Shown here one piece after another: positions 3,373 through 43,530 of a DNA stretch of 64,000 nt (positions are counted from its first letter, which is position 1; the number at the start of each line of letters is the position of its first letter). This DNA comes from Henricia sp. BOLD:AAB3569 (Eukaryota > Echinodermata > Asteroidea > Spinulosida > Echinasteridae). The DNA lies in assembly GCA_037783545.1 (NCBI GenBank), contig JBBELK010000010.1, forward strand, positions 62,001 to 126,000, given 5' to 3'. Position numbers and translations under genes: made by a program. The notes under the pieces are model-generated. The model was not told the origin of the DNA, searched no databases, and saw only the letters and a program-made list of their open reading frames with translations.

Positions 3373-3417
3373 TCTCTGCTCAAGTCAATACATAACAAGT
3401 CCCGTCCATTATCTAAG

Positions 3418-4125
3418 GTGGAAAAGATAGATTTCATCTTTCAACATCTTAGTGGTCCGGCCCGAGATGAAGTTAAATATAGGGGCAAAGATGCAGTTGA
3501 AAGCATTTTTGAGGTTCTTCGAGATGCATTCGGAGATCAGGGAACCTCGGTTCAATTACAACGTTCTCTTTTTGAGCGTAAGCAAAGAGAAGGTGAAAGT
3601 CTAAGGTCTTATTCTCATGCTATTTTAGATCTGTTTGAACGTGCTCGAAGAAAGAGTCCATACCTTGTTGATTGTAAAGAACAACTTCTTAACGTAGAAG
3701 GTGTTGCCGACGTTCTTCTCCATAAGCATCTGAAGGCATGCCTCCGTGAACATCCAGATATCGACTTTTTCTCCTTGAGAGCAGAGGCTTTGGAGTGGGC
3801 TGAAGAGTCTCTTCTGAGGAAGAGTAAGTATGAAGCTATTGTTGAGACTTCACAAGCAGTAGTAGGAGAATCAATGATTCTAGAGATTCTGCAGAAACAA
3901 CAGAAACAAATTGACGAGTTAACAAAGAATGTTAAAGATCTTCTTTCTGTTGCCGAGTATAAACCTCCAACTTACAGATTTCGAAACAAACCAGAGAAAT
4001 CACCTTGTTCCTTTTGTAAAAAATCTGGACACGTACAAGATAACTGCTATTTGTGGAAGTTAAAGAGAGCCGAAGACACTATCGAAGAGTTGAAGCGTTC
4101 AATGACTCCTAAAAAGGAAAACTAG
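3418..4125 (+). CDS. retrotransposon Gag-like protein, 5'-incomplete
   Basis: Open frame of 235 residues whose first codon here is GTG. The frame is open back to 3373 and the first in-frame ATG is only near residue 150, so the true amino end is missing or lies upstream. Residues 1-140 look like a helical capsid-type Gag domain (QLQRSLFERKQREGESLRSY). A zinc knuckle CSFCKKSGHVQDNC (CX2CX4HX4C) lies at about residues 199-212, followed by a basic tail. It should bind genomic RNA and assemble particles. It is followed in the -1 frame by an aspartic protease ORF, which is open right across the Gag stop. No reverse transcriptase follows, so only the 5' part of an LTR element is present. Confidence 0.8.
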   Translation: MEKIDFIFQHLSGPARDEVKYRGKDAVESIFEVLRDAFGDQGTSVQLQRSLFERKQREGESLRSYSHAILDLFERARRKSPYLVDCKEQLLNVEGVADVLLHKHLKACLREHPDIDFFSLRAEALEWAEESLLRKSKYEAIVETSQAVVGESMILEILQKQQKQIDELTKNVKDLLSVAEYKPPTYRFRNKPEKSPCSFCKKSGHVQDNCYLWKLKRAEDTIEELKRSMTPKKEN

Positions 4126-4214
4126 TACCTCTCGTTGAGTTCGGTCCCTTAAGCGAGAGGGAAACTTGGGGCCTTACTGTTGAGACAGCTTATGAAAATT
4201 CTTTAACGAATTTA

Positions 4215-5057
4215 GTGTCTGGGTGTCCTACTTTGACAGCAAGGTTAGCCGATATTGACGTTAATTGTTTAGTTGATACAGGTTCGATGATTTCAACTGT
4301 TACTGAAGAATTTTTCTTAAAGTACTTTCAACCTGCAGGAACTGAACTAAAGTCCGATAGTCTTTCTTCAAGGATAACGACATCTAATGGACTGGAAATA
4401 CCTTATATAGGATATCTTGAGTTGGATGTTGAAATATCCAGCTACAAGTTGCCAAAGATGGGTTTTATAGTTGTTAAGGACTCGCAAGATCAAGAAAATA
4501 AGAAGATGAAGCGACAGGTACCTGGTTTACTTGGTATGAATGTATTGCGTCCATTAATAGATTTACTTCCAGATGGAGTCCAATTAACCAGTTTTGCTTT
4601 GTCATCCTTGAAGAGTCTCTTAACCTTGCAAGCTAGTGCTGACGCCGAGGAGAGTACAGCGGTTGCTGCGGTCAGAACGGCGTCGACATCCGTTTTTGTT
4701 CCTCCAGAAAGCTTTGTTGTGGTGACAGCTTGTGCATCAACAACTGTTCCGTATGAACTTGCAGTTGTTGAGCCTATACGCAACAGCGACCATCTCCCAG
4801 TAGGATTTTTAATGGCTTCTACCTTGGTTGAGACTGGAAAAGAATTTCAGGTACGAGTTGATAATTTGACATCTTCAGGTGTTACTTTAAAACTTCATAC
4901 TCGTATTGGAATTCTGACAGGAGTGGATTCGGTTGTTGATAATTCTCGCCATGTCAATCTTTCTGTTTCAGTACATGAGATACATGTTAGTGAGACATTG
5001 ATTACTTCGAAGACATCACTTAAAGATTCTGATGTTTCAGTCAAGATTCAGACTTAG
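4215..5057 (+). CDS. retroviral-type aspartic protease fragment
   Basis: Frame of 280 residues in the -1 frame relative to the upstream Gag. It is open back through about 4120, so expression by -1 frameshifting at the Gag end is plausible, although no canonical slippery heptamer is obvious. The catalytic motif CLVDTGS appears near residue 19, and the second-lobe hydrophobic-hydrophobic-Gly motif is GLLGMNVL near residue 104. This is the retropepsin pattern of Ty3/Gypsy-type Pol. The Pol reading is cut at about 5045-5057, where sequence that is clearly NACHT begins, so the reverse transcriptase, RNase H and integrase are absent. Alternative: a domesticated Gag-Pro gene. Confidence 0.75.
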   Translation: MSGCPTLTARLADIDVNCLVDTGSMISTVTEEFFLKYFQPAGTELKSDSLSSRITTSNGLEIPYIGYLELDVEISSYKLPKMGFIVVKDSQDQENKKMKRQVPGLLGMNVLRPLIDLLPDGVQLTSFALSSLKSLLTLQASADAEESTAVAAVRTASTSVFVPPESFVVVTACASTTVPYELAVVEPIRNSDHLPVGFLMASTLVETGKEFQVRVDNLTSSGVTLKLHTRIGILTGVDSVVDNSRHVNLSVSVHEIHVSETLITSKTSLKDSDVSVKIQT

Positions 5058-22203: not shown

Positions 22204-22743
22204 GTACATTTGACAAGGGGAATAAATGTGTGTACAAATTGGGAAACTATAGTAAAAGTAGAAGGATGTACATGTACATACGGTATGTATGTTCAGCGCG
22301 ATATTTGCGTCTTAATCTTGCCTACCATATAATCGAGGGATTGCACTGCTGAATGTGTGGATTTTCTAACTCCTTGTTTTCACGACCCCCATATGCGCTA
22401 TGTACATGATAAAAGTGCTGAAAAGGTGAATAACGACACATGTTTGATAGATTTTGCTACAAAAAAATCAGCAAGTACATGTAAGACAAATCTAGGCTAA
22501 GACGAAATACATCACAAAAATAACTATGCACGCGCAGGCATGATGCGGCATACAGCAGGCAACAAACCGATTTTACTGGCCGCTTTTGCTGGTGCTTCTT
22601 GAACAATCGATGTTGCCTAGATTCTTTTTTATTATCCACACTTATACAGGGTAAATATTTCACAATGATGACGTAATTTATAACAATCCAAAAAGTTGAA
22701 GCACATGTAGTCTCTACACCTCTCCCCTTAGGAAACCACGCCC
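22204..22743. other. no gene recognised
   Basis: Intronic or intergenic A/T-rich DNA with no feature seen. Confidence 0.5.
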
Positions 22744-23282
22744 CTCAGGATACAGGTGATTACATGCATAAAGAAACTTTAGAGTACATGTGAAAACTTG
22801 CATAAAAAAGCCCAAGGATACAGGTGAAAACCTGCATCAAAACGCCCAAGGATACAGGTGAAAACCTGCATCAAAATGCCCAAGGATACAGGTGAAAACC
22901 TGCATCAAAACGCCCAAGGATACAGGTGAAAACCTGCATCAAAACGCCCAAGGATACAGGTGAAAACCTGCATCAAAAAGCCCAAGGATAGAGGTGAAAA
23001 CCTGCATCAAAACGCCCAATGATACAGGTGAAAACCTGCATCAAAACGCCCAAGGATACAGGTGAAAACCTGCATCAAAACGCCCAAGGATACAGGTGAA
23101 AACCTGCATCAAAACGCCCAAGGATACAGGTGAAAACCTGCATCAAAACGCCTAAGGATACAGGTGAAAACCTGCATCAAAAAGCCCAGGAATACAGGTG
23201 AAAACCTGCATCAAAAAGACTAACAATACAGATGAAAACCTGCATAAAAATACCCAAAAAGACAGGTGTACACCTTTACAGG
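22744..23282. repeat. 34-bp minisatellite, left part
   Basis: About 15 copies of a 34-bp unit containing gatacaggtgaaaacctgca and tcaaaacgcccaag, very regular in the middle and decayed at both edges. Each unit contains CAGGT-GAAA-ACCTG, a 5-bp stem with a GAAA loop. The same unit resumes at 32398, on the far side of inserted elements. Confidence 0.95.
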
Positions 23283-23627
23283 TTAAAGGTACACACCTGC
23301 CTACTGTTTACATGATTTAGTGATGTAGCAGCATTGACAATACTTTTTTGATGGTCGTTGCAAAAAACATTTCATCAAAATATCCCGTAATTTACTAAAG
23401 AAGTGCAAAAATAACAAAAACGGTCAAAAGACGGGTTATACGCTTTACCAGCCGTTGCAACTACGCGAGAGCCTCACGACTTTGTCACAAACGATTCGCT
23501 CTTCTCCTGCTCAGGATATCTCCAATTTTCTGCTCACGATTTCACTGGACAGCCCGGACGACCGAATAGGAATTTCCGTTTTCTTGTTGAGGAGTTGGCA
23601 TCATGTTTTTTTCTTCACGAACGTACG

Positions 23628-24793
23628 TGTGTGACGGAATTAGCCGTCAGTCAAAAGGCCTCGGTGGCAAACCCAAATTATGTTATGATTATGGAGAGGG
23701 CGGAGTGCGCCCTCGCGTGAGCGCTGTGCGAACTACACGGTCTGAACACTTGCGATCCTGATGTCGAGGAGCGAGCATCCGGCGCCAGTCTAATCGCGTG
23801 GTTCAATTGAGAGAGTTATTCTCTTGAACTAGACAACCTCTGCCCGGGGCAGGAGGTTGTGAGCGGTGTGCCCATAGCAGAGCTGAAGCAGACCCGTTTG
23901 TAGTCAACCGGGGAAGTACTGTGCTACGTGGACAGGCACGAGTTACCGAGTGTCGTCGGAGTTCATTGCCTGGGTAAGGGAAACATACTGAAGCAAACTG
24001 TGTTATTGTGTACTTTTATATTAAAGTGCAGGGGATCGTGTGGAGTCAGGGTTGAGCGTATCTCGTGTACGATAGTGGTTAATTAGGCGGTTAGATTGCC
24101 AGACGTGCGATACTGTTGCCTATCGGTAACGCTGTATCGAGGTTTAAGTCTGTGTGGTCTGTGGCCTGCGACCCGTGAGGGTTACCGAGATCTCCCAGGA
24201 CCTTAACAATCTTAATGACAGTAGAGGTTAGTGGGAAATCAACTAGCCTGGGGTTCCGTATAGTAAATACGAAATTATCTAGAGTTACATTTGGAGGCTT
24301 ACCCTGTGTTAATAACTGAGGTTGAATAACCCTTGGTGTTGTGTAGCACAAGAGGTTTACTCCTTTGCATAAAATAGGTGAAGTAAACCTCATACCTGTT
24401 ATTTATAAACCTCGCTCGCATATATCATTGTTGTTGTTGACTACTATATTCTGAGGTTGATTAGAGGTTGTAGTAAACCTCATCATCCTGGTTATTGTGC
24501 CGCATACTGAGAGGTTTAGTATTAAACCAGTTGAGTTCTGTATAACCTGGCGTCTTGTGCCCTTAATTGAATAACTGTACCAGGCAGAATAGTTTGATCC
24601 TTGCTCGTTGGTATATTTCCAACAAACGGACAGGCCTAGGACTTAATCAGTTCTTCGTTCGTGACAATTTCCCCCTCTGGTGTGTATTCCGCTCATGCGC
24701 ATTGGAGGATAATAAATAGAATTGTGGGAATATCTGTCTTCCACACAAAACCGTAAGGGCGTTTGTGTGTACCGGGACGGACGAACCGCCACA
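23628..24793 (+). repeat. 5' LTR of Gypsy element (~1166 bp)
   Basis: Begins tgtgtgacggaattagcc and ends in CA directly before the primer-binding site. Its first 380 bp are repeated almost identically at 31634-32013. It contains acaacctctgcc paired with ggcaggaggttgt as an internal inverted repeat, and eight of the GAGGTTTA/GAGGTTGA words in its second half. Confidence 0.85.
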
Positions 24794-24794
24794 A

Positions 24795-24812
24795 TGGTGT
24801 CAGAAGTGGGGA
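24795..24812 (+). promoter_or_regulatory. primer-binding site (tRNA-Leu type)
   Basis: tggtgtcagaagtgggga lies one base after the LTR. It matches the form expected for the complement of a tRNA-Leu 3' end, as in many Ty3/Gypsy elements. Confidence 0.75.
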
Positions 24813-24981
24813 TGAGTAAGGATTACATTGTTTTGTTCTGCCTGTAATTACACATTCAGTAGAATTGTGGGTACACTTCAGGTAGTCGCTAGATATTCCT
24901 GAGTGTTCCTTTTGAGGAGCAAGAGGAGAATAATTGCTGAGGTTTACTGAATAGCCCTCAGTTGAGGTGCTGTTGGTCGCC

Positions 24982-26601
24982 ATGAGTGGGCGACGAGAGA
25001 GAAAAATCACCACACCAGGTGAGGTTGACGGAGAGTCGCTACGAGATGAATTGAATAGTTCGAAGATGGAAAATCAGTTCCTGCAGTTGGAGAAAGACCA
25101 GCTGTCCAAGAGGATTGCTGAGCTGGAGGGTGCTGTGAAAAAGTCACAGCAGAGGGTTACTGAGGTTGACCCCGACATTGAGTTCAGGCTACCCGATGAA
25201 ACATCTGGTTATGTTTCGTATGGGGCATGGCCTTCGGTAAATGTTGGCGAGTCACCGGAGCTAGTTCCTGTGGCCAGAGGAACGGAATCAAAGTATTGGG
25301 AGAGTTCCTCTCCAAAGTCCCCTGGACCTATGGGGGCGGCTATGCTTTCCACACCAGTAGTTTCTTCTCATGGTGTGAAGAGGCCCACTGAGAGGGTGCC
25401 TGATATGTTGAGGTTTACCGTGCCAGATCCTGCGGAAAGCTTGGGACTGTACGAGGGAGGTTTACCCAACAAAAACCCATTTGAGGTTGTGCCATCACTG
25501 GATGAAGCTAGGCGAGTACACAGTGAGGTAATACGTTTTGCAACTAAACCTCCCGTAGTGGACCGTAAGGAGTCACCTGTTGAGGTTGATTCGAAGTCAG
25601 TAGGCCCGTGGCCACTGAAGAGGGAACCGAGGTTTACCAGTAATGAGGGTTGCGGTAACCCTCAGGGTGGAATGCCTCGCCGTCCGAACATTGTGCCAGA
25701 TCGGTACAGTGGCAAGATCATGTGGAATGAATATTTCCAGCATTTTGAGTCTTGCAGAGCAGTCAATGGATGGACTGATGAGCAGGCTGCCAAATACCTG
25801 GCCGCTAGCCTGCAAGGCAGTGCGTTGAGGTTGTTGGGGGATCATACCCCTGAAGGTCACAAGCACCCGTATCATGAGCTTGTGAAGCTGTTAGCAAGGA
25901 GGTTTGGGCCTGCCAGACAGGCAGAGAACTACCTTGTTGAGCTGAGACATCGCCGTCAAGGGTTGAACGAAAACCTACAAGAGTTGGGACAAGCGATTCG
26001 AGAGTTGGCAGTGAAGGCCTATCCCGAGATACAGGAAGAGGCCAGAGATAGACTAGCCAAGAATCATTTCCTGGACGCTGTAGAAAGTCAGACAGTGCGG
26101 GAGGGAATCTACCGAGCACGTCCGACCGGTCTTGATGAAGCTATCAGGGCTGCGTTGGAAACAGAAAGTTTTGACAAGGTCGAGCAACAGAGGAAGTTCG
26201 ATCGCAGGCCTGCCAAATTGGCACGGGCGGTTGATCGTGGAATTGGAAATGAGCAGAGAATCCGAGAGTTAGAGGAGAAGGCTGATATTCAGTCGGAGAA
26301 GCTGAATACGATAGTCGAGATGTTGGCGAACCTGACCAAACAATGCCAGGGGGAGGAGGCTCGAAGCCGGAACCCTCCGAAAAGTTCGCCAAAGCTTGGA
26401 AACGATGAGAGAAGTGAGCTAAAATGCTACAACTGTGGCAAAGCGGGTCACTTTGCGAGGGATTGTACGCAACCTCGGAGAAGGCGTAGCCATGAGAAGC
26501 AGGGAAACGCCAACCAGCCGACCGGAGGGCCCGCGGACAGGCTGGGGAGTCAACAGGGTCCAATAAAAGACGAAGGTCTGAGAGAGAAGACCGAACAGTG
26601 A
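24982..26601 (+). CDS. gag: Gypsy Gag polyprotein
   Basis: 539 residues from ATG 24982 (MSGRRERKITT). Residues ~20-50 form a heptad-like coiled coil, followed by a long linker. The central capsid-like part (WNEYFQHFESCRAVNGWTDEQ ... FLDAVESQTVREG) is typical of Ty3/Gypsy Gag. A zinc knuckle CYNCGKAGHFARDC is at about residues 481-494, followed by a basic tail that would bind RNA. The stop at 26601 overlaps the Pol frame, which lies in -1 and is open upstream of 26598, so -1 frameshifting is likely. Its 5' half contains seven of the GAGGTTKA words in different codon frames. Confidence 0.95.
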   Translation: MSGRRERKITTPGEVDGESLRDELNSSKMENQFLQLEKDQLSKRIAELEGAVKKSQQRVTEVDPDIEFRLPDETSGYVSYGAWPSVNVGESPELVPVARGTESKYWESSSPKSPGPMGAAMLSTPVVSSHGVKRPTERVPDMLRFTVPDPAESLGLYEGGLPNKNPFEVVPSLDEARRVHSEVIRFATKPPVVDRKESPVEVDSKSVGPWPLKREPRFTSNEGCGNPQGGMPRRPNIVPDRYSGKIMWNEYFQHFESCRAVNGWTDEQAAKYLAASLQGSALRLLGDHTPEGHKHPYHELVKLLARRFGPARQAENYLVELRHRRQGLNENLQELGQAIRELAVKAYPEIQEEARDRLAKNHFLDAVESQTVREGIYRARPTGLDEAIRAALETESFDKVEQQRKFDRRPAKLARAVDRGIGNEQRIRELEEKADIQSEKLNTIVEMLANLTKQCQGEEARSRNPPKSSPKLGNDERSELKCYNCGKAGHFARDCTQPRRRRSHEKQGNANQPTGGPADRLGSQQGPIKDEGLREKTEQ

Positions 26602-29600
26602 CGGTCAAGACTCCGATGTCTAAACCCCGATGTGGTTTGTATGTTGATGGCTTCGTAAGAGGAACGAAGTGTTTGTTTTTAGTTGACACAGGGTCTTCCG
26701 ACACGTTGATAAATAGTTCTGTTTATCACGATATCGCCAAAGAGCGAAGACCCGTTTTAGAAACGGCGGGCGTAGATGTGCGACAAGTCGACGGCACTCC
26801 TTTGGCGGTGCTGGGAGCGGCTTGGGTGGAAGTGCAGGTCGGAAAGACGACTTCTCCAATCAGAGCAATGTTTGCTGATATGGATTGCCCTGGGATATTA
26901 GGCATGGATTTCATATTGCCTACGTATGGAAATTTAGATTTCCGGGCTCTAGAGTTGAGGCTGAATGGCGAGAGGATAAAGTGCACGAGCAGTGCCGGTC
27001 AGTCATTCGTTGGCCGAGTAGTGGTGGCCAAAACCGTAAGGGTTCCACCAGGCCATGAGGCCGTGGTACTAGGTACTGTTGACAAATGGTGCTCATTGGA
27101 AGATGGGCCGGCCATTATTGAACCTGTTGAGGGTGGAGGAGAGCTCGCCCAGAGGGGGCTAGTGCTAGCCAGAACACTGGTGCAGGCACGAGAGGAAAAC
27201 GTTCCGGTGCGAATCTTTAACCCTAGCCGAGAAAACCGAGTTGTCCGAGAAGGAACAACTGTTGGCACTATATCACCCGCTGAGGTTGATGAGGTTCAGC
27301 CAGAGGTTGACAGTACCAGGGTTGAGATAACCCTCCCAAACCATTTGCACGAATTGTTTGAACAGAGCAAGGCAAATGCGGAGACAAAGTACCATGGAGA
27401 AATCCTGAAGTGTCTTCTTGACTTCCATGATGTTTTCTCCAAAGGTGACCAAAACATTGGTCACACAGATGTGGTGAACCACCATATCGATACAGGGGAT
27501 GCAAGGCCTATAAAACAGAGGCCTCGGCGTCATCCCCTGTGCAATCAGATGGAAATCATGAGGCAAGTGAAAGACCTTGAGAAGAGAGGGGTCATCATCC
27601 CAACGGACATTCCATGGGCGGAAAATGTCGTGTTGGTCAAAAAGAAAGACGGGACCAAGAGGTTCTGCGTCGATTACAGAGCATTAAATGCAGTGACTGT
27701 CAAGGACGCATACCCCGTGCCGAGGATTGATGAGACACTCGATGCGCTGGCAGGTGCCACGTGGTTTTCAACGCTTGATTTAGCATCGGGATACTGGCAG
27801 GTAGCCTTGGATGAGGATGCTAGCCGGAAGTCCGCTTTCGTAGTGAGGAACGGCTTGTACAGATGGAGCTGCATGCCATTCGGGCTCTGCAATGCCCCTG
27901 CAACCTTTGAGAGGCTTATGGAAAAGGTTCTCTCAGGCCTGCAGTGGGACATCTTGCTGATATACCTGGACGATGTAATCGTCTTTGGTAAGAGTGTTCC
28001 AGAGGAGATAGAGCGTCTTCGGACAGTCTTCTCAAAACTGCGGGAGGCTGGGCTGAAGTTGAAACCGAGCAAGTGTTGTGTATTCCAAAGGACTGTCACC
28101 TATCTAGGACACATCGTGTCAGAAGATGGAGTCGCAGTTGACCCTGAGAAAGTACGAGCTGTGGCTGAGTGGCCAGTGTCCGTGAATGTTAAGGAAGTGA
28201 GAAGCTTCCTGGGTCTGGCTTCCTATTATATGAAGTTCATTCGTGAATTTGCGGAGGTGGCAGGTCCACTGCACGCATTGACGGGGAAAGCCAAAGTGTT
28301 TGATTGGAGTGACTTATGTCAAGAGTCATTCGACGAACTGAAGCAGAGGCTTCAGAGAGCACCGATATTGGCATATCTATTGCCAAGTGTGGACTACATC
28401 CTGGATGTAGACGCCAGTGGAGATGCATTAGGGGCTGTATTATCCCAAGTGCAAACTGGTGCGGAGAGAGTTCTTGCCTACGCAAGCAGAAAGCTAAGCA
28501 AGGCAGAAAGGAACTACTGCGTAACACGGAGAGAGCTCCTAGCAGTAGTGAGCTACTTGAAATACTTCAGGCAGTACTTGTATGGCCAGAGGACCACCGT
28601 ACGAACTGACCATGCTTCCCTTAAGTGGTTGATGCGATTCAAGAATCCTGAAGGACAGCTGGCCAGGTGGCTTGAAGTAATTTCCGAGTACAATTTAACA
28701 ATCCAGCATAGACCTGGGAAACAGCACACCAATGCTGATGGCCTATCCAGAAGGCCGTGTAGACAATGTGGTCGAGAAGGGACTACGGAGGAGATCGAGG
28801 AGTCGAAAGAGTCTGAGAGCCCGACTCCAGTGACAGAGCCTGTCGTAAGAGGCGTGACTGCCCAGCCGAGTATATCGTGGGGAGTTATGCGAAAAGCACA
28901 ACTTGCAGATAAGACCATGTGTTGGGTCTTGGAGGCGAAGGAAAAAGGGGACAGTCGTCCGGCCTGGGACACTGTTTCCCATACCTCTACCACCGGTAAG
29001 ACATACTGGTCACTTTGGGATCAGTTGGAAGTCCAAAATGGAATGTTGGTGAGACGATGGGAGTCTGCCGATGGCAAGTCCGTCAGATGGCGGATGATTT
29101 TGCCTGTAGAATTTCAGAATGAAATTCTAACTGAGCTTCATGGTGGTCAGCTCAGCGGCCACTTTGGCGTGAGCAAGACAGTTGCCAAGGTGAAGTTCAG
29201 GTATTTTTGGCCTGGAATCGCAGCGGATGTAAGGTCACTCATTCGCAAGTGTGCCAGCTGCGCACGGAGGAAGTCCCCCTTGCAGCAATGCCATGTAGGT
29301 GAGCCGATGGAGAGAGTGGCTCTGGATTTGCTTGGGCCACTGCCGGTCACCAACAGTGGTCATAAGTGGATCATGGTCGTGGGAGACTACTACTCCAAGT
29401 GGATGGAGGCTTACCCACTTCCGGATGCAACTGCCGTAACAGTTGCGAGGAAGTTCGTCAACGAATTTGTATGCAGGTTTGGCGTGCCGAAAGAGGTGCA
29501 TTCAGACCAAGGTGCCAACTTTGAATCTGCAGTGTTCACAGAAATGGGCAGGCTGTTGGGCATCCAAAAGACAAGAACCACAGCATACAACCCCAAGTCA

Positions 29601-30404
29601 GATGGCATGGTGGAGAGATTCAACCAGACTCTAATCCATGTCGTCGCCATGCTGATTGATGAAAAACGTAGGCAGAGGGACTGGGATGAATATCTCCCCT
29701 ACGCTACGTTTGCGTACAGATGTACGCCACAAGACTCTACAGGAGAGTCGCCCAACCTAATGATGTTAGGTAGGGAGGTCAGGTTGCCAGTGGATCTGAT
29801 AACTGAGAGTCCAGACATACCCAGCGGTGTCCAAACTGATTTTGCAGTCGAGCTGCGTCGACAGATGCAACAGGCTCATGATAGAGCCAGGGAATGCCTG
29901 CAGAGCAGTTCTCGAAGGCAGAAGCAGCAGTACGACAGAAAAGCTGCAGAAAGTGGGTTACGAGAAGGGCAATTTGCCTGGTTGTACAGCCCAGCAACAA
30001 AGAAGGGATTGAGCCCTAAACTCCGGCTACGTTGGGAGGGGCCATATCTAATCATGGACAAGCTGTCAGATGTAACATTTAGAGTCCAGCTGAAAAGGGG
30101 CAGCAAGCCTCGTGTGGTTCATTCAGACCGGCTTAAGCCCTACCAAGGGGAAGCTATTGAGCCGTGGAACCAACAGCCTAAGCTTGACTCAACGACCAAC
30201 CAGGAAGTCGAAAAGTTGCCTAACGAGGCAGAATGCGACAAATTAGTTGAGACGAGGCCAGAAGAAGAGCCGAGTCCTGATGAGTGGACCGAAGAGCCAC
30301 CCCAGAGTGAAGTCACGCCGAAAAGGGTGGATGAATCTGGTGAAACACCGAGACGGTACCCTAAGAGGCGGCACCGGTTGCCGGCCAGGTACCGAGAGTG
30401 CTAA
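26598..30404 (+). CDS. pol: Gypsy Pol polyprotein (PR-RT-RNase H-IN)
   Basis: 1268 residues with no internal stop. Aspartic protease LFLVDTGSSDTLIN is near residue 30, with GILGMDFI near residue 98. The reverse transcriptase has FCVDYRALN near 355 and YLDDVIVF near 455. RNase H carries DVDASGDALG near 600. The integrase zinc finger (H-H-C-C, from HGGQLSGHFG to CASCARR) spans ~846-888. The DDE core has ALDLLGP near 908, HSDQGANF near 967 and GMVERFNQTL near 1005. A GPY/F-type module (RWEGPYLIMD) is near 1145. All catalytic residues are present. No chromodomain was recognised in the tail. It is read in -1 relative to Gag, beginning with GTG in this frame, so translation presumably comes through Gag. 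Confidence 0.97.
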   Translation: MTVKTPMSKPRCGLYVDGFVRGTKCLFLVDTGSSDTLINSSVYHDIAKERRPVLETAGVDVRQVDGTPLAVLGAAWVEVQVGKTTSPIRAMFADMDCPGILGMDFILPTYGNLDFRALELRLNGERIKCTSSAGQSFVGRVVVAKTVRVPPGHEAVVLGTVDKWCSLEDGPAIIEPVEGGGELAQRGLVLARTLVQAREENVPVRIFNPSRENRVVREGTTVGTISPAEVDEVQPEVDSTRVEITLPNHLHELFEQSKANAETKYHGEILKCLLDFHDVFSKGDQNIGHTDVVNHHIDTGDARPIKQRPRRHPLCNQMEIMRQVKDLEKRGVIIPTDIPWAENVVLVKKKDGTKRFCVDYRALNAVTVKDAYPVPRIDETLDALAGATWFSTLDLASGYWQVALDEDASRKSAFVVRNGLYRWSCMPFGLCNAPATFERLMEKVLSGLQWDILLIYLDDVIVFGKSVPEEIERLRTVFSKLREAGLKLKPSKCCVFQRTVTYLGHIVSEDGVAVDPEKVRAVAEWPVSVNVKEVRSFLGLASYYMKFIREFAEVAGPLHALTGKAKVFDWSDLCQESFDELKQRLQRAPILAYLLPSVDYILDVDASGDALGAVLSQVQTGAERVLAYASRKLSKAERNYCVTRRELLAVVSYLKYFRQYLYGQRTTVRTDHASLKWLMRFKNPEGQLARWLEVISEYNLTIQHRPGKQHTNADGLSRRPCRQCGREGTTEEIEESKESESPTPVTEPVVRGVTAQPSISWGVMRKAQLADKTMCWVLEAKEKGDSRPAWDTVSHTSTTGKTYWSLWDQLEVQNGMLVRRWESADGKSVRWRMILPVEFQNEILTELHGGQLSGHFGVSKTVAKVKFRYFWPGIAADVRSLIRKCASCARRKSPLQQCHVGEPMERVALDLLGPLPVTNSGHKWIMVVGDYYSKWMEAYPLPDATAVTVARKFVNEFVCRFGVPKEVHSDQGANFESAVFTEMGRLLGIQKTRTTAYNPKSDGMVERFNQTLIHVVAMLIDEKRRQRDWDEYLPYATFAYRCTPQDSTGESPNLMMLGREVRLPVDLITESPDIPSGVQTDFAVELRRQMQQAHDRARECLQSSSRRQKQQYDRKAAESGLREGQFAWLYSPATKKGLSPKLRLRWEGPYLIMDKLSDVTFRVQLKRGSKPRVVHSDRLKPYQGEAIEPWNQQPKLDSTTNQEVEKLPNEAECDKLVETRPEEEPSPDEWTEEPPQSEVTPKRVDESGETPRRYPKRRHRLPARYREC

Positions 30405-30492
30405 TGCACAGGTTAAAATGCATGTAAAGGCTGTTATTGATATTGTTTTCTTTTGTTTTTCCTGATGTGGGAAGCAGCCAAACAACATCAGT

Positions 30493-31260
30493 ATGCCGCC
30501 AAAGGCAAGTCCAGCGAAGACCGGGAAGATTTTCTGCAACGTTTGTGGCCAAGGTTTCGAGCAGAAGCAAGGCCTGTGGCGTCATAAGAAACAACTCCAT
30601 GGCCCGGAAGCTGTTTATTTTTGCGGAAGATGTCACTACCACTTCAACAGACGCGACAACCTTCGTCGCCACTACAAGCAGAGCCATCTGGCGTTCCTGC
30701 CAGAAGTGGGCCGAATTGAGAGAAAGGCCTCCAGTCGTGGGGCAAGGCCCGATGCTGGCATAGGAAGGAGGTCGATGACCCGTCGAGTGAGTAGTCGAGA
30801 GGCACCAGCCCCTCCAACCGCAGCAGTGGTGACGCCTAGGATGGAGTCAAATGAAGATGGTCCCCCACCGCCAGAAAACCCAAGCCAGAATGTGGCGATG
30901 ATTAGCCTGTCCCCGACGCCCATCTCACCCCTGGTAGCCACACCGAAGTCACCCGTTAGGTCCCCAATCGTGCTGGGTGGGAAACCACGTGGCTTCCTAC
31001 AGATGATGAGGCAGACCGCATCCTCTTCGGAGAGCTCCCCAGCATCGGTGCCACCCTTGGAGCCGGTGGAGATTACCCAACCGAAGGAGGTGAAGACCGG
31101 AGAGAAGAGGAATCTGCGAGTCGTCATCCACGACCGAGTTGTCCGCAAGGTCTATGCCCAGGGAATCTGCGTCGAGCGGGAAGACAACGTCAAGGTTACG
31201 TCAGAGTTCCGTGAGGTCAACTGGCCACTCATTGGACTGCCAGACATTAATGGACAGTAG
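30493..31260 (+). CDS. third ORF of the Gypsy element: C2H2 zinc-finger protein
   Basis: 255 residues from ATG 30493 (MPPKASPAKTGK), starting 89 bp after the Pol stop. Two adjacent fingers fit CX2CX12HX4H: CNVCGQGF ... HKKQLH (about residues 16-36) and CGRCHYHF ... HYKQSH (about 44-64). A long Pro/Ser-rich, probably disordered stretch follows (about 100-200), then a short more ordered tail (RVVIHDRVVRKVYAQG). No signal peptide or membrane segment is present, so this is not an envelope protein despite its position. The element keeps this frame fully open alongside intact gag and pol, which argues it is part of the transposon. Likely role: nucleic-acid binding, perhaps regulation of the element. 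Alternative: a host zinc-finger exon recently captured. Confidence 0.85.
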   Translation: MPPKASPAKTGKIFCNVCGQGFEQKQGLWRHKKQLHGPEAVYFCGRCHYHFNRRDNLRRHYKQSHLAFLPEVGRIERKASSRGARPDAGIGRRSMTRRVSSREAPAPPTAAVVTPRMESNEDGPPPPENPSQNVAMISLSPTPISPLVATPKSPVRSPIVLGGKPRGFLQMMRQTASSSESSPASVPPLEPVEITQPKEVKTGEKRNLRVVIHDRVVRKVYAQGICVEREDNVKVTSEFREVNWPLIGLPDINGQ

Positions 31261-31633
31261 AGCTCGTTAGAGTGGGAAACATCGCGTTAAAATCAGTGTA
31301 TATATTATAATTGAGTTCATCTTGGATATTTATCGTCACGAAAGAGAGAAAAACAAGTTTTGTATTAACCCGATATGAAAGTGTACTTTTTGCCAAATTT
31401 TTGTTATTGTTGCGAAGCACTGGTTTTGAGGTTTAAAACACATAAAAGGAAACATTAGTAAACCTGAAGTAATTGCAGAGGTTTACCCGAGGTTTTTAAA
31501 CAAAAAGAGGGGCAATGAAGCCTCAGAGGTTTATGATTAGTATGTTCAATCATTATATTAAGAAAGTATTTTTTGTGTTATTGTTATATTGATTAAGCTT
31601 ATAAACGGGGACGTTTCCAGCTTAGCTTGGGCC
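31261..31633 (+). other. 3' non-coding region of Gypsy element
   Basis: Non-coding. It holds three exact GAGGTTTA words at 31428, 31478 and 31526 within 106 bp, plus near-matches. A purine-rich aaaaagagggg lies at about 31502-31512. No long polypurine tract directly abuts the LTR. Confidence 0.7.
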
Positions 31634-32013
31634 TGTGTGACGGAATTAGCCGTCAGTCAAAAGGCCTGGGTGGCAAACCCAAATTATGTTATGATTATGG
31701 AGAGGGCGGAGTGCGCCCTCGCGTGAGCGCTGTACGAACTACACGGTCTGAACACTTGCGATCCTGATGTCGAGGAGCGAGCATCCGGCGTCAGTCTAAT
31801 CGCGTGGTTCAATTGAGAGGGTTATTCTCTTGAACTAGACAACCTCTGCCCGGGGCAGGAGGTTGTGAGCGGTGTGCCCATAGCAGAGCTGAAGCAGACC
31901 CGTTTGTAGTCAACCGGGGAAGTACTGTGCTACGTGGACAGGCACGAGTTACCGAGTGTCGTCGGAGTTCATTGCCTGGGTAAGGGAAACATACTGAAGC
32001 AAACTGTGTTATT
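31634..32013 (+). repeat. 3' LTR, truncated
   Basis: Matches 23628 onward through aaactgtgttatt with only a few differences, then stops. About 786 bp expected from the 5' LTR are missing, and the sequence passes directly into the host DNA element (tccggactctcgaaac). Confidence 0.9.
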
Positions 32014-32397
32014 TCCGGACTCTCGAAACAAACAATTATGTTCGAATTTTCATACTTATGTTTAACTTTGTTTCATACCTGTATAAATAGTCTCTCTTTT
32101 GTCAATTACTTATAAATATTGGGGGGAAATCAGAGTTGAATTTGGTGCAGTTCTGCAGTAACAAACTTTTATACGGCTGGAAATACAACTAACTCACAAG
32201 ACCATGTGACTTTTCGGAACCAGAATTTGGTTCCGAAAAGTCACGTGACCTTGGATTTTTCAAAAGTGCTAAAAAACGGCCAAATTTGACGGCGTCTTTT
32301 CAGGATATATCTAATTTACTCTCGAATGCGTTTCAGAATAATGTATGGGTCTATTTTGAGCCCAAAATAGCCCAACAAAGAAGGTGTGTTCCTTTAA

Positions 32398-32556
32398 ACC
32401 TGTATCAAAAAGCCTTAATATACAGGTGAAACCCTGCAGCAAAAAAGCCCAAAGATACATGTACAAACCTGCATCAAAAAGCCTTAAAATAACGCTGAAA
32501 ACGTGACCAAAAAGCCTAAAGATACACGTACAAACCTGCATCAAACAAGACAGTTG
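32398..32556. repeat. 34-bp minisatellite, right part
   Basis: Four to five diverged units (acctgtatcaaaaagcc, tacaggtgaaaccctgca, acctgcatcaaaaagcc) in phase with the array that ends at 23282. This shows that everything between was inserted into one array. Confidence 0.85.
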
Positions 32557-43255: not shown

Positions 43256-43530
43256 AGAAATGTCCCATGGAATTCCCATGGGAAAATATCCCATGGGACA
43301 CCATGGTGAATTGGCCACCATGTAGCATGGGATTTTTCCCATGGGGTATTTCCCATGGGGTATTTCCCATGGTTTTTTTTCCCATGGGGTTTTTCCCATG
43401 GGTTTTTTTCCCATGGGGTTTTTCCCCATGGGTTTTTCCCCCCATGGGTTTTTTTTCCCCATTGGGTTTTTTTCCATGGGTTTTTTCCCCATGGGCTTTT
43501 TCCCCATGGGCTTTTTCCCCATGGGTTTAA
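43256..43530. repeat. CCCATGGG-rich simple tandem repeat
   Basis: About 20 occurrences of the palindrome ccatgg separated by T- or A-runs (cccatggggtttttt-like units of 12-17 bp). All six frames are partly open because of the repeat; the encoded MGKKP-like peptides are artefacts. It abuts the Ngaro Gag remnant. Confidence 0.9.

Follow-up and report, generated by a model that had tools for sequence, protein, structure and literature searches.

The 64,000-nucleotide stretch analysed here (the window; contig JBBELK010000010.1 of the sea star Henricia sp. BOLD:AAB3569, C10:62001-126000) carries on its forward strand a Ty3/Gypsy element with an incomplete 3′ long terminal repeat (LTR), recognised by its LTR repeat and its coding domains (23628..32013). 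Open reading frame (ORF) and domain searches place gag, with a CCHC zinc knuckle, at 24982..26601 and pol at 26496..30404, and the protease (PR), reverse transcriptase (RT), RNase H and integrase (IN) domains are of Gypsy type and follow one another as PR-RT-RNaseH-IN, in agreement with the Ty3/Gypsy assignment. Downstream of pol lies a third frame, ORF3 (30493..31260), which encodes a 255-aa protein with two C2H2 zinc fingers. A sequence-only reading of this DNA had described an array of the octamer GAGGTTKA in the element and had suggested that the binder of the array may be the element's own zinc-finger protein. The array is real, and the binding proposal gains support from the fit of the finger triplets to the word and from the fact that relatives of the element within this genome differ in both fingers and words.

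The extent of the LTR determines where the array lies. Within the window, the LTR repeat pair covers 23628-24007 and 31634-32013 (99% identical). The ends of matching genome copies, however, define a 5′ LTR of 1166 bp with TG...CA ends (23628..24793); the matches end at 24793 in copies L007, L008, L010 and L011/L012, and at 24796 in L006. The LTR is three times longer than the 380-bp in-window repeat because the 3′ LTR of the window gives way to a foldback element after 32013, leaving only its first 380 bp (31634..32013). The first eight words of the array are therefore inside the LTR, which corrects the earlier placement.

We counted 21 GAGGTTKA words in the element, 17 on the plus strand and four on the minus strand. 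The 20 words reported previously are all present at their positions, but that total had overlooked a minus-strand word at 25545. Sixteen of the words fall between 24139 and 25636: eight in the LTR (24139..24518; five plus, three minus), all downstream of a TATA-like box noted by eye at 24014..24025; a single plus-strand word in the leader (24939..24946); and seven in the 5′ part of gag, one of them on the minus strand (25021..25636). Two plus-strand words lie in pol (27282..27310), and three, also on the plus strand, precede the 3′ LTR (31428..31533), where three of four other copies have four. Dinucleotide shuffles (300) of the element gave a mean of 0.88 words and a maximum of 5, so the enrichment holds against shuffled controls, a check that the sequence-only reading had proposed. 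By part, the observed counts and shuffle means were 9 versus 0.11 for R, U5 and leader, 7 versus 0.20 for gag, 3 versus 0.03 before the 3′ LTR, 2 versus 0.31 for pol, 0 versus 0.05 for ORF3 and 0 versus 0.02 for the first 380 bp of the LTR. The rest of the window has six more words, near the chance level of the same shuffles on both sides of the element (left, 1 versus 1.70; right, 5 versus 1.94).

An unbiased scan returned the same word. GAGGTTTA is the top octamer and GAGGTT the top hexamer of the array regions (14 versus 0.14 and 23 versus 1.13, respectively), regions that were picked after the finding; both words also rank first over the whole element, a scan free of that choice (14 versus 0.54 and 32 versus 4.4). 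In 2066-bp windows, GAGGTTTA reaches up to 11 copies with unlike flanks, against at most 5 for any other word outside the element. Coding does not account for the gag words, as had been argued from their use of three codon frames: synonymous-codon permutation of gag gave a mean of 0.99 and a maximum of 4, and 0 of 3000 permutations reached 7. A protein-level footprint of the words among gag relatives (33 of the 43 extended over 120 or more residues at the N-terminal end) consisted of enriched dipeptides at homologous positions and hence is uninformative. The flanks of the 21 words are no more alike than those of random positions (mean identity 0.257 versus 0.254), indicating that the words were not spread by duplication in this family, and the one array found in the element by Tandem Repeats Finder (28478-28510) is away from the words. 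Both LTRs also carry two facing GAGGTT cores without the KA tail, in the inverted repeat ACAACCTCTGCCCGGGGCAGGAGGTTGT (23835-23858 and 31841-31864), which in the 5′ LTR is upstream of the TATA-like box.

That the element encodes a two-finger C2H2 protein is borne out by PF00096 matches in two stretches of ORF3. The structure model, together with homologue comparison, places finger 1 at 30535..30600 (helix QKQGLWR) and finger 2 at 30622..30687 (helix RRDNLRR). Both fingers are modelled with high confidence, the middle of the protein with low confidence, and the C-terminus as a two-stranded hairpin (mean pLDDT 68.5). This long hairpin might perhaps serve in self-association or in binding a co-factor. 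A conserved SLSPTPISPL stretch lies in the low-confidence middle. A fold search with the model returned nothing at E<=0.001; the weak structure matches include Tramtrack (2drp) and ADR1 (2adr), which resemble ORF3 in using two fingers on a short site but are host transcription factors. The base-contacting position 6 of the helix is conserved among homologues, being Arg in 14/14 for finger 1 and 14/15 for finger 2 (after omission of three and two partial homologues, respectively), whereas position -1 of finger 1 is very variable. ORF3 belongs to a family, whose members include proteins of Patiria miniata and Asterias amurensis; gag also has a relative in Asterias amurensis. No ORF3 relative was found in the viral contigs or genome contigs collections, and no RT relative in the viral contigs.

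The fingers fit the word. The available parts of the recognition literature indicate that the first finger of engineered arrays reads the 3′-most triplet (PMC3607563, Table 1), that RSDNLAR is the standard GAG finger (PMC3607563), that an RNR finger reads GAG and a QAR finger GTA (PMC5260074) and, by implication, that Asp or Glu at position 2 goes with G as the 3′ neighbour (PMC3919609). Finger 2 of ORF3 (R, D, N and R at positions -1, 2, 3 and 6) is the standard GAG finger, and its Asp2 predicts G or T as the next base. For finger 1 (Q, Q, G, R) the prediction is G, an unspecified base and then A or T, T being the second choice beside A for Gln at -1. The predicted site, GAGGN[A/T], matches the observed core GAGGTT (GAG-GTT), so the triplet prediction proposed earlier as a check agrees with the word. 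By chance, GAGG in a suitable register occurs in 2.3% of random octamers and GAGGN[AT] in 1.2%. Among single-base variants of GAGGTT, only those at position 5 are enriched (10 versus 1.68, P 1e-5; P>=0.14 at the other five positions), and this lax position is the base under Gly3 of finger 1. Position 8 of the octamer also has a slight excess of variants (3 versus 0.52, P 0.016).

We searched the organism's own genome (740.7 Mb) for further copies and compared 11 loci of the same family, two of which, L011 and L012, overlap and constitute one copy. Five copies reach across the full set of 16 words in the 5′ part: the set is intact (16/16) in three, one has three changed sites and one has two. 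ORF3 is retained at 90-100% identity in four other copies, with one stop in the C93 copy and a match in two overlapping pieces in the C403 copy. Copies that keep ORF3 without the words had been named as grounds for doubt; the same-family copies examined retain both. After ORF3, the C403 copy (L015) carries a 37-bp deletion exactly between two GAGGTTT repeats, and words can therefore be lost by recombination between direct repeats.

The genome contains 139 ORF3 matches (720 candidates, 149 scored). Our comparison of divergent elements covered 21 elements with both 5′ and ORF3 pieces (gag in 18, an intact two-finger unit in 19), together with the 3′ flanks of L019-L048. The 5′ regions of C195 (incomplete), C329, C356 and C363 (gag not found) and C615 and C291 (primer site not found) were unusable or doubtful and that of C618 was absent; 3′ flanks were substituted for these seven. 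Elements whose finger 2 is of the RDN-R type mostly carry GAGG[T/A]TTA. Those of C1231/C239/C412 (one family), C1021 and C653, all RDN-R with a readable 5′ region, have 21-24 GAGGTT where about 1.5 are expected, within the longer word GTGAGG[T/A]TTA. Among the 3′ flanks, GAGGTT or GTGAGG is one of the leading hexamers in the RDN-R loci L021, L023, L025, L026, L033, L036, L037, L038 and L043, and also in L032, whose finger is RNN-R; neither leads in L034, L042, L044, L047 or L048, and they lead weakly in L045/L046. Although 17 GAGGTT (versus 1.29) occur in C666b, it lacks an intact two-finger unit. The top hexamers in the LTR, leader and gag of L014, a relative without ORF3, are TGAGGT (7 versus 0.53) and GAGGTT (8 versus 0.77). 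A tandem array with an 84-bp unit lies upstream of that relative (L014:485-1576).

Elements with other fingers carry other words. C832 (QRQNLWR/RTDTLAR) has the word GCGGATTA (7 versus 0.08), six times as GCGGATTAC, and its family member C195 (RDT-R) has GCGGATTA in the 3′ flank (5 versus 0.04). C130 (HRQSLYK/AAETLQR) has five sites of GTAAGTTAC, which reads GTAACTTAC on the opposite strand, so that this word may lie in either orientation. TAAGGA is enriched in C809 (RDN-T; 9 versus 0.84) and TTAAGG in C504 (RDN-V; 12 versus 0.93, a count in which four palindromes are entered twice and several sites are near-repeats). C1056 (TQKSCSR/RRDCIRR) has GTGTGG (15 versus 0.94, many of the 15 being repeats), five sites of which read GTGTGGTT and contain GTGGTT. 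In the gag-related element C509 (L075), AGGAGACA sites are enriched in the 5′ region and a two-finger unit was not found.

Read position by position, a partly post hoc exercise, words and fingers correspond. Base 1 is G with Arg at residue 6 of finger 2 and A with Thr or Val; base 2 is A with Asn at residue 3 and C (C832) or T (C130) with Thr; base 3 is G with Arg at residue -1 and A with Ala (C130). Base 5 is A in C832, under Asn at residue 3 of finger 1, but both T and A in C653. Hexamers written by fixed rules match the family they were derived for more closely than permuted hexamers do, with 30/5040 permutations doing as well for seven classes, two misfits included, and 2/120 for five classes picked for a clear word. 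The co-variation of word and finger helices that the sequence-only reading had put forward as a check is clear for GAG versus GCG and less clear in the other classes.

Several observations weigh against joint change of fingers and words. The permutation signal comes mainly from GAGG (5.5x in its own families) and G[CT]GGA[AT] (4.2x in its own family and 3.3x in C616). In C130 and C809 the family's own pattern carries no information (1.00x and 1.27x), and the C1056 pattern does better on the GAGG families (5.3-5.7x) than on C1056 itself (2.3x). A four-base version of the test is weaker (248/5040 and 4/120). The expectation that base 6 would track residue -1 of finger 1 failed, T staying with Q, K, R, N or T, and Lys6 of finger 1 pairs with A in C130 but with G in C809/C504. 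The sole word of C666a/C475/C363, GGCTTAC, is weak and lacks a fixed 5′ triplet, and the words GCGGAACGG and TCGCGGTT of C616 (L064) are not explained by its own fingers. For GAGG alone at P<1e-3, 4/11 distinct RDN-R finger pairs are enriched versus 0/8 others, not a significant difference (Fisher p=0.10), or 10/21 versus 0/11 by locus; this test left out L022, L040 and L074 (no intact two-finger unit) and L028 (overlaps L023). Several of the RDN-R entries in it consist of ORF fragments, of a five-finger frame of 930 aa or of no more than 0.3-1.5 kb of 3′ flank. Families that carry one word are, moreover, related by descent. Finally, in young copies the word sites are not significantly better conserved than their surroundings (10/1024 versus 274/19340 sites differ, p=0.28).

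On balance, the recognition code and the comparison of families make it likely that ORF3 binds the array of its own element. The element would then encode its own sequence-specific DNA-binding protein together with dispersed sites around both of its ends. Finger 2 would read the 5′ triplet GAG, with Asp2 favouring G or T next, and finger 1 would read G, a lax base and T, the TTA(C) tail extending the site. We infer that the target of ORF3 is the word in duplex DNA, with avidity arising from the many sites. A site for two fingers has little length, and specificity for the element would come from the number of sites, perhaps helped by ORF3 associating with itself through the C-terminal hairpin. 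On this reading, finger and word have moved jointly in the related families. What bound ORF3 might do is a guess from analogy: it could raise transcription of its own copies or prevent their silencing. The broader reading, to which we give a probability of roughly 0.45, is that these elements are a Gypsy radiation in which each family has a private zinc-finger protein and word array, the two co-changing base by base, and activates or un-silences its own copies only.

Self-recognition by an element-encoded protein is already known in other element classes. The VANC protein binds a short motif occurring densely in copies of its own VANDAL family, mostly in one orientation, and related VANDAL families use different motifs (PMC5735166, available part). 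The likeness lies in an element-specific, dense motif array and in motif and protein differing together between families, here clearly for GAG/GCG and partially elsewhere. VANDALs, however, are plant (Arabidopsis) DNA transposons; the available part of PMC5735166 does not describe VANC as C2H2 and has its motifs mainly non-coding, with tandem repeats as their means of spread. In the present element, by contrast, seven words are in gag and the flanks are random. Only C2H2 families match ORF3 in Pfam, so homology to VANC is not indicated. Anti-silencing is a property of VANC, to which ORF3 is likened by its array and correspondence; ORF3 may work like VANC without being one. The foamy-virus protein Tas is encoded by a retroelement and binds its own LTR and an internal promoter (PMC4929722, available part). 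It shares with ORF3 that the regulator is encoded by the retroelement itself. To our knowledge, Tas is not a C2H2 finger protein. It belongs to a retrovirus rather than a Gypsy element, and no dense dispersed word array is described in the available part of PMC4929722. LTR elements of bdelloid rotifers have a family-specific extra ORF3 after pol, of DEDDy, GDSL and env-like types (PMC5408684, available part); the terms 'zinc finger', 'C2H2' and 'DNA-binding' are absent from the main text of that paper. Among the articles listed by full-text searches of open-licence PMC papers, none was seen to describe C2H2 self-recognition with a word array in Gypsy elements.

The direction of regulation could be the reverse of the one suggested here: ORF3 may bind the array as a repressor or insulator, limiting copy number or shielding the element from its neighbours. 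The present results do not distinguish the sign of regulation, and the placing of the array at both ends of the element would suit an insulator, but VANC and Tas, the self-recognition proteins cited, promote expression, and we regard this alternative as unlikely. Somewhat less likely again is a host factor, C2H2 or other, that binds the array for activation or insulation while ORF3 does other work. Such an arrangement is known from Drosophila gypsy, which has an array of sites for a C2H2 protein in its 5′ transcribed region; it too is a Gypsy-class element, but its binder, the 12-finger protein Su(Hw), is a host product and none is self-encoded, so that the comparison is an analogy only. The strictness of the words within one family would suit a host factor, as would the failure of base 6 and the TTAC tail to track the fingers. 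The word core, however, matches the element's own finger 2 by code, and a single host factor does not predict that the word should differ where finger 2 differs (GAG/GCG).

A role of the words in RNA, in packaging, export or binding by ORF3 as an RNA-binding protein, we consider improbable. The sense orientation of 17/21 words (binomial p=0.007), the folding of the 940-nt transcript start (24042-24981) far better than 20 shuffles (z=-7.6) and the stem formed by a 10-bp inverted word pair (24352/24384) are in its favour. Four words are antisense, however, and only these could so pair with the 17; the 191 nt richest in words fold no more than unremarkably (z=-1.9), and the DNA recognition code fits. 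An origin of the array as a side effect of coding, of composition or of local duplication is scarcely credible given the synonymous permutations, the three codon frames, the random flanks and the lack of a tandem array at the words of the window element, although in relatives the flanks are somewhat alike (identity 0.43 in C653 and 0.34 in C1231 versus about 0.25) and the GTGTGG sites of C1056 are partly repeats, so that duplication adds sites there.

If ORF3 binds the array, the element is an LTR retrotransposon with a private regulator-site pair, and its related families within one genome are parallel natural experiments on the co-evolution of zinc finger and site. Animal Gypsy elements would then join the plant DNA transposons with VANC and the foamy viruses with Tas as carriers of element-encoded self-recognition, and how young retrotransposons escape silencing without activating others would become testable. 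Should the co-change reading be true, these families would be the animal retrotransposon counterpart of plant VANC and a natural record of the evolution of zinc-finger recognition.

Other features of the element are as follows, all on the plus strand. A primer-binding site, TGGTGTCAGAAGTGGGG, presumably tRNA-Leu-like, lies directly after the LTR end set by the genome copies (24795..24811), and an AATAAA noted by eye (24711..24716) is a possible poly(A) signal of R. Where gag and pol overlap, the slippery heptamer G_GGA_AAC is in the gag frame (26502..26508), suited to a -1 shift into pol. A pyrimidine-rich stretch, also noted by eye, ends in AG and is a possible splice acceptor (30450..30477), its AG at 30477 being 15 bp upstream of the ORF3 ATG. 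There is no purine run immediately 5′ of 31634, where a polypurine tract would be expected. A run near 31504 was considered as the LTR start and dropped: both LTRs of the window begin alike at 23628/31634, foldback-arm similarity also ends at 23628, and the run has been lost by deletion from copy L015. Because the window lacks the end of the 3′ LTR, there is no right border with which to compare a target-site duplication (4-6 bp). Rfam gave no match within the element.

The element sits inside the outer of two foldback-type elements, whose arms are 95-98% complementary (23276-23628/34964-35313 and 32014-32380/34446-34812), and its 3′ LTR is cut at the start of the inner one. A tandem array with a 34-bp unit lies just left of the outer arm (22647-23343), with related units at 32373-32546. 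Another retroelement remnant at 3373-5057 retains open frames, among them one that encodes an aspartyl protease domain; it has no tblastn similarity to the proteins of the Gypsy element and contains a single word, at 3960. At 43263-43416 there is a cluster of the near-palindrome CCATGGGA/TCCCATGG, many of them at 14-15 bp spacing.

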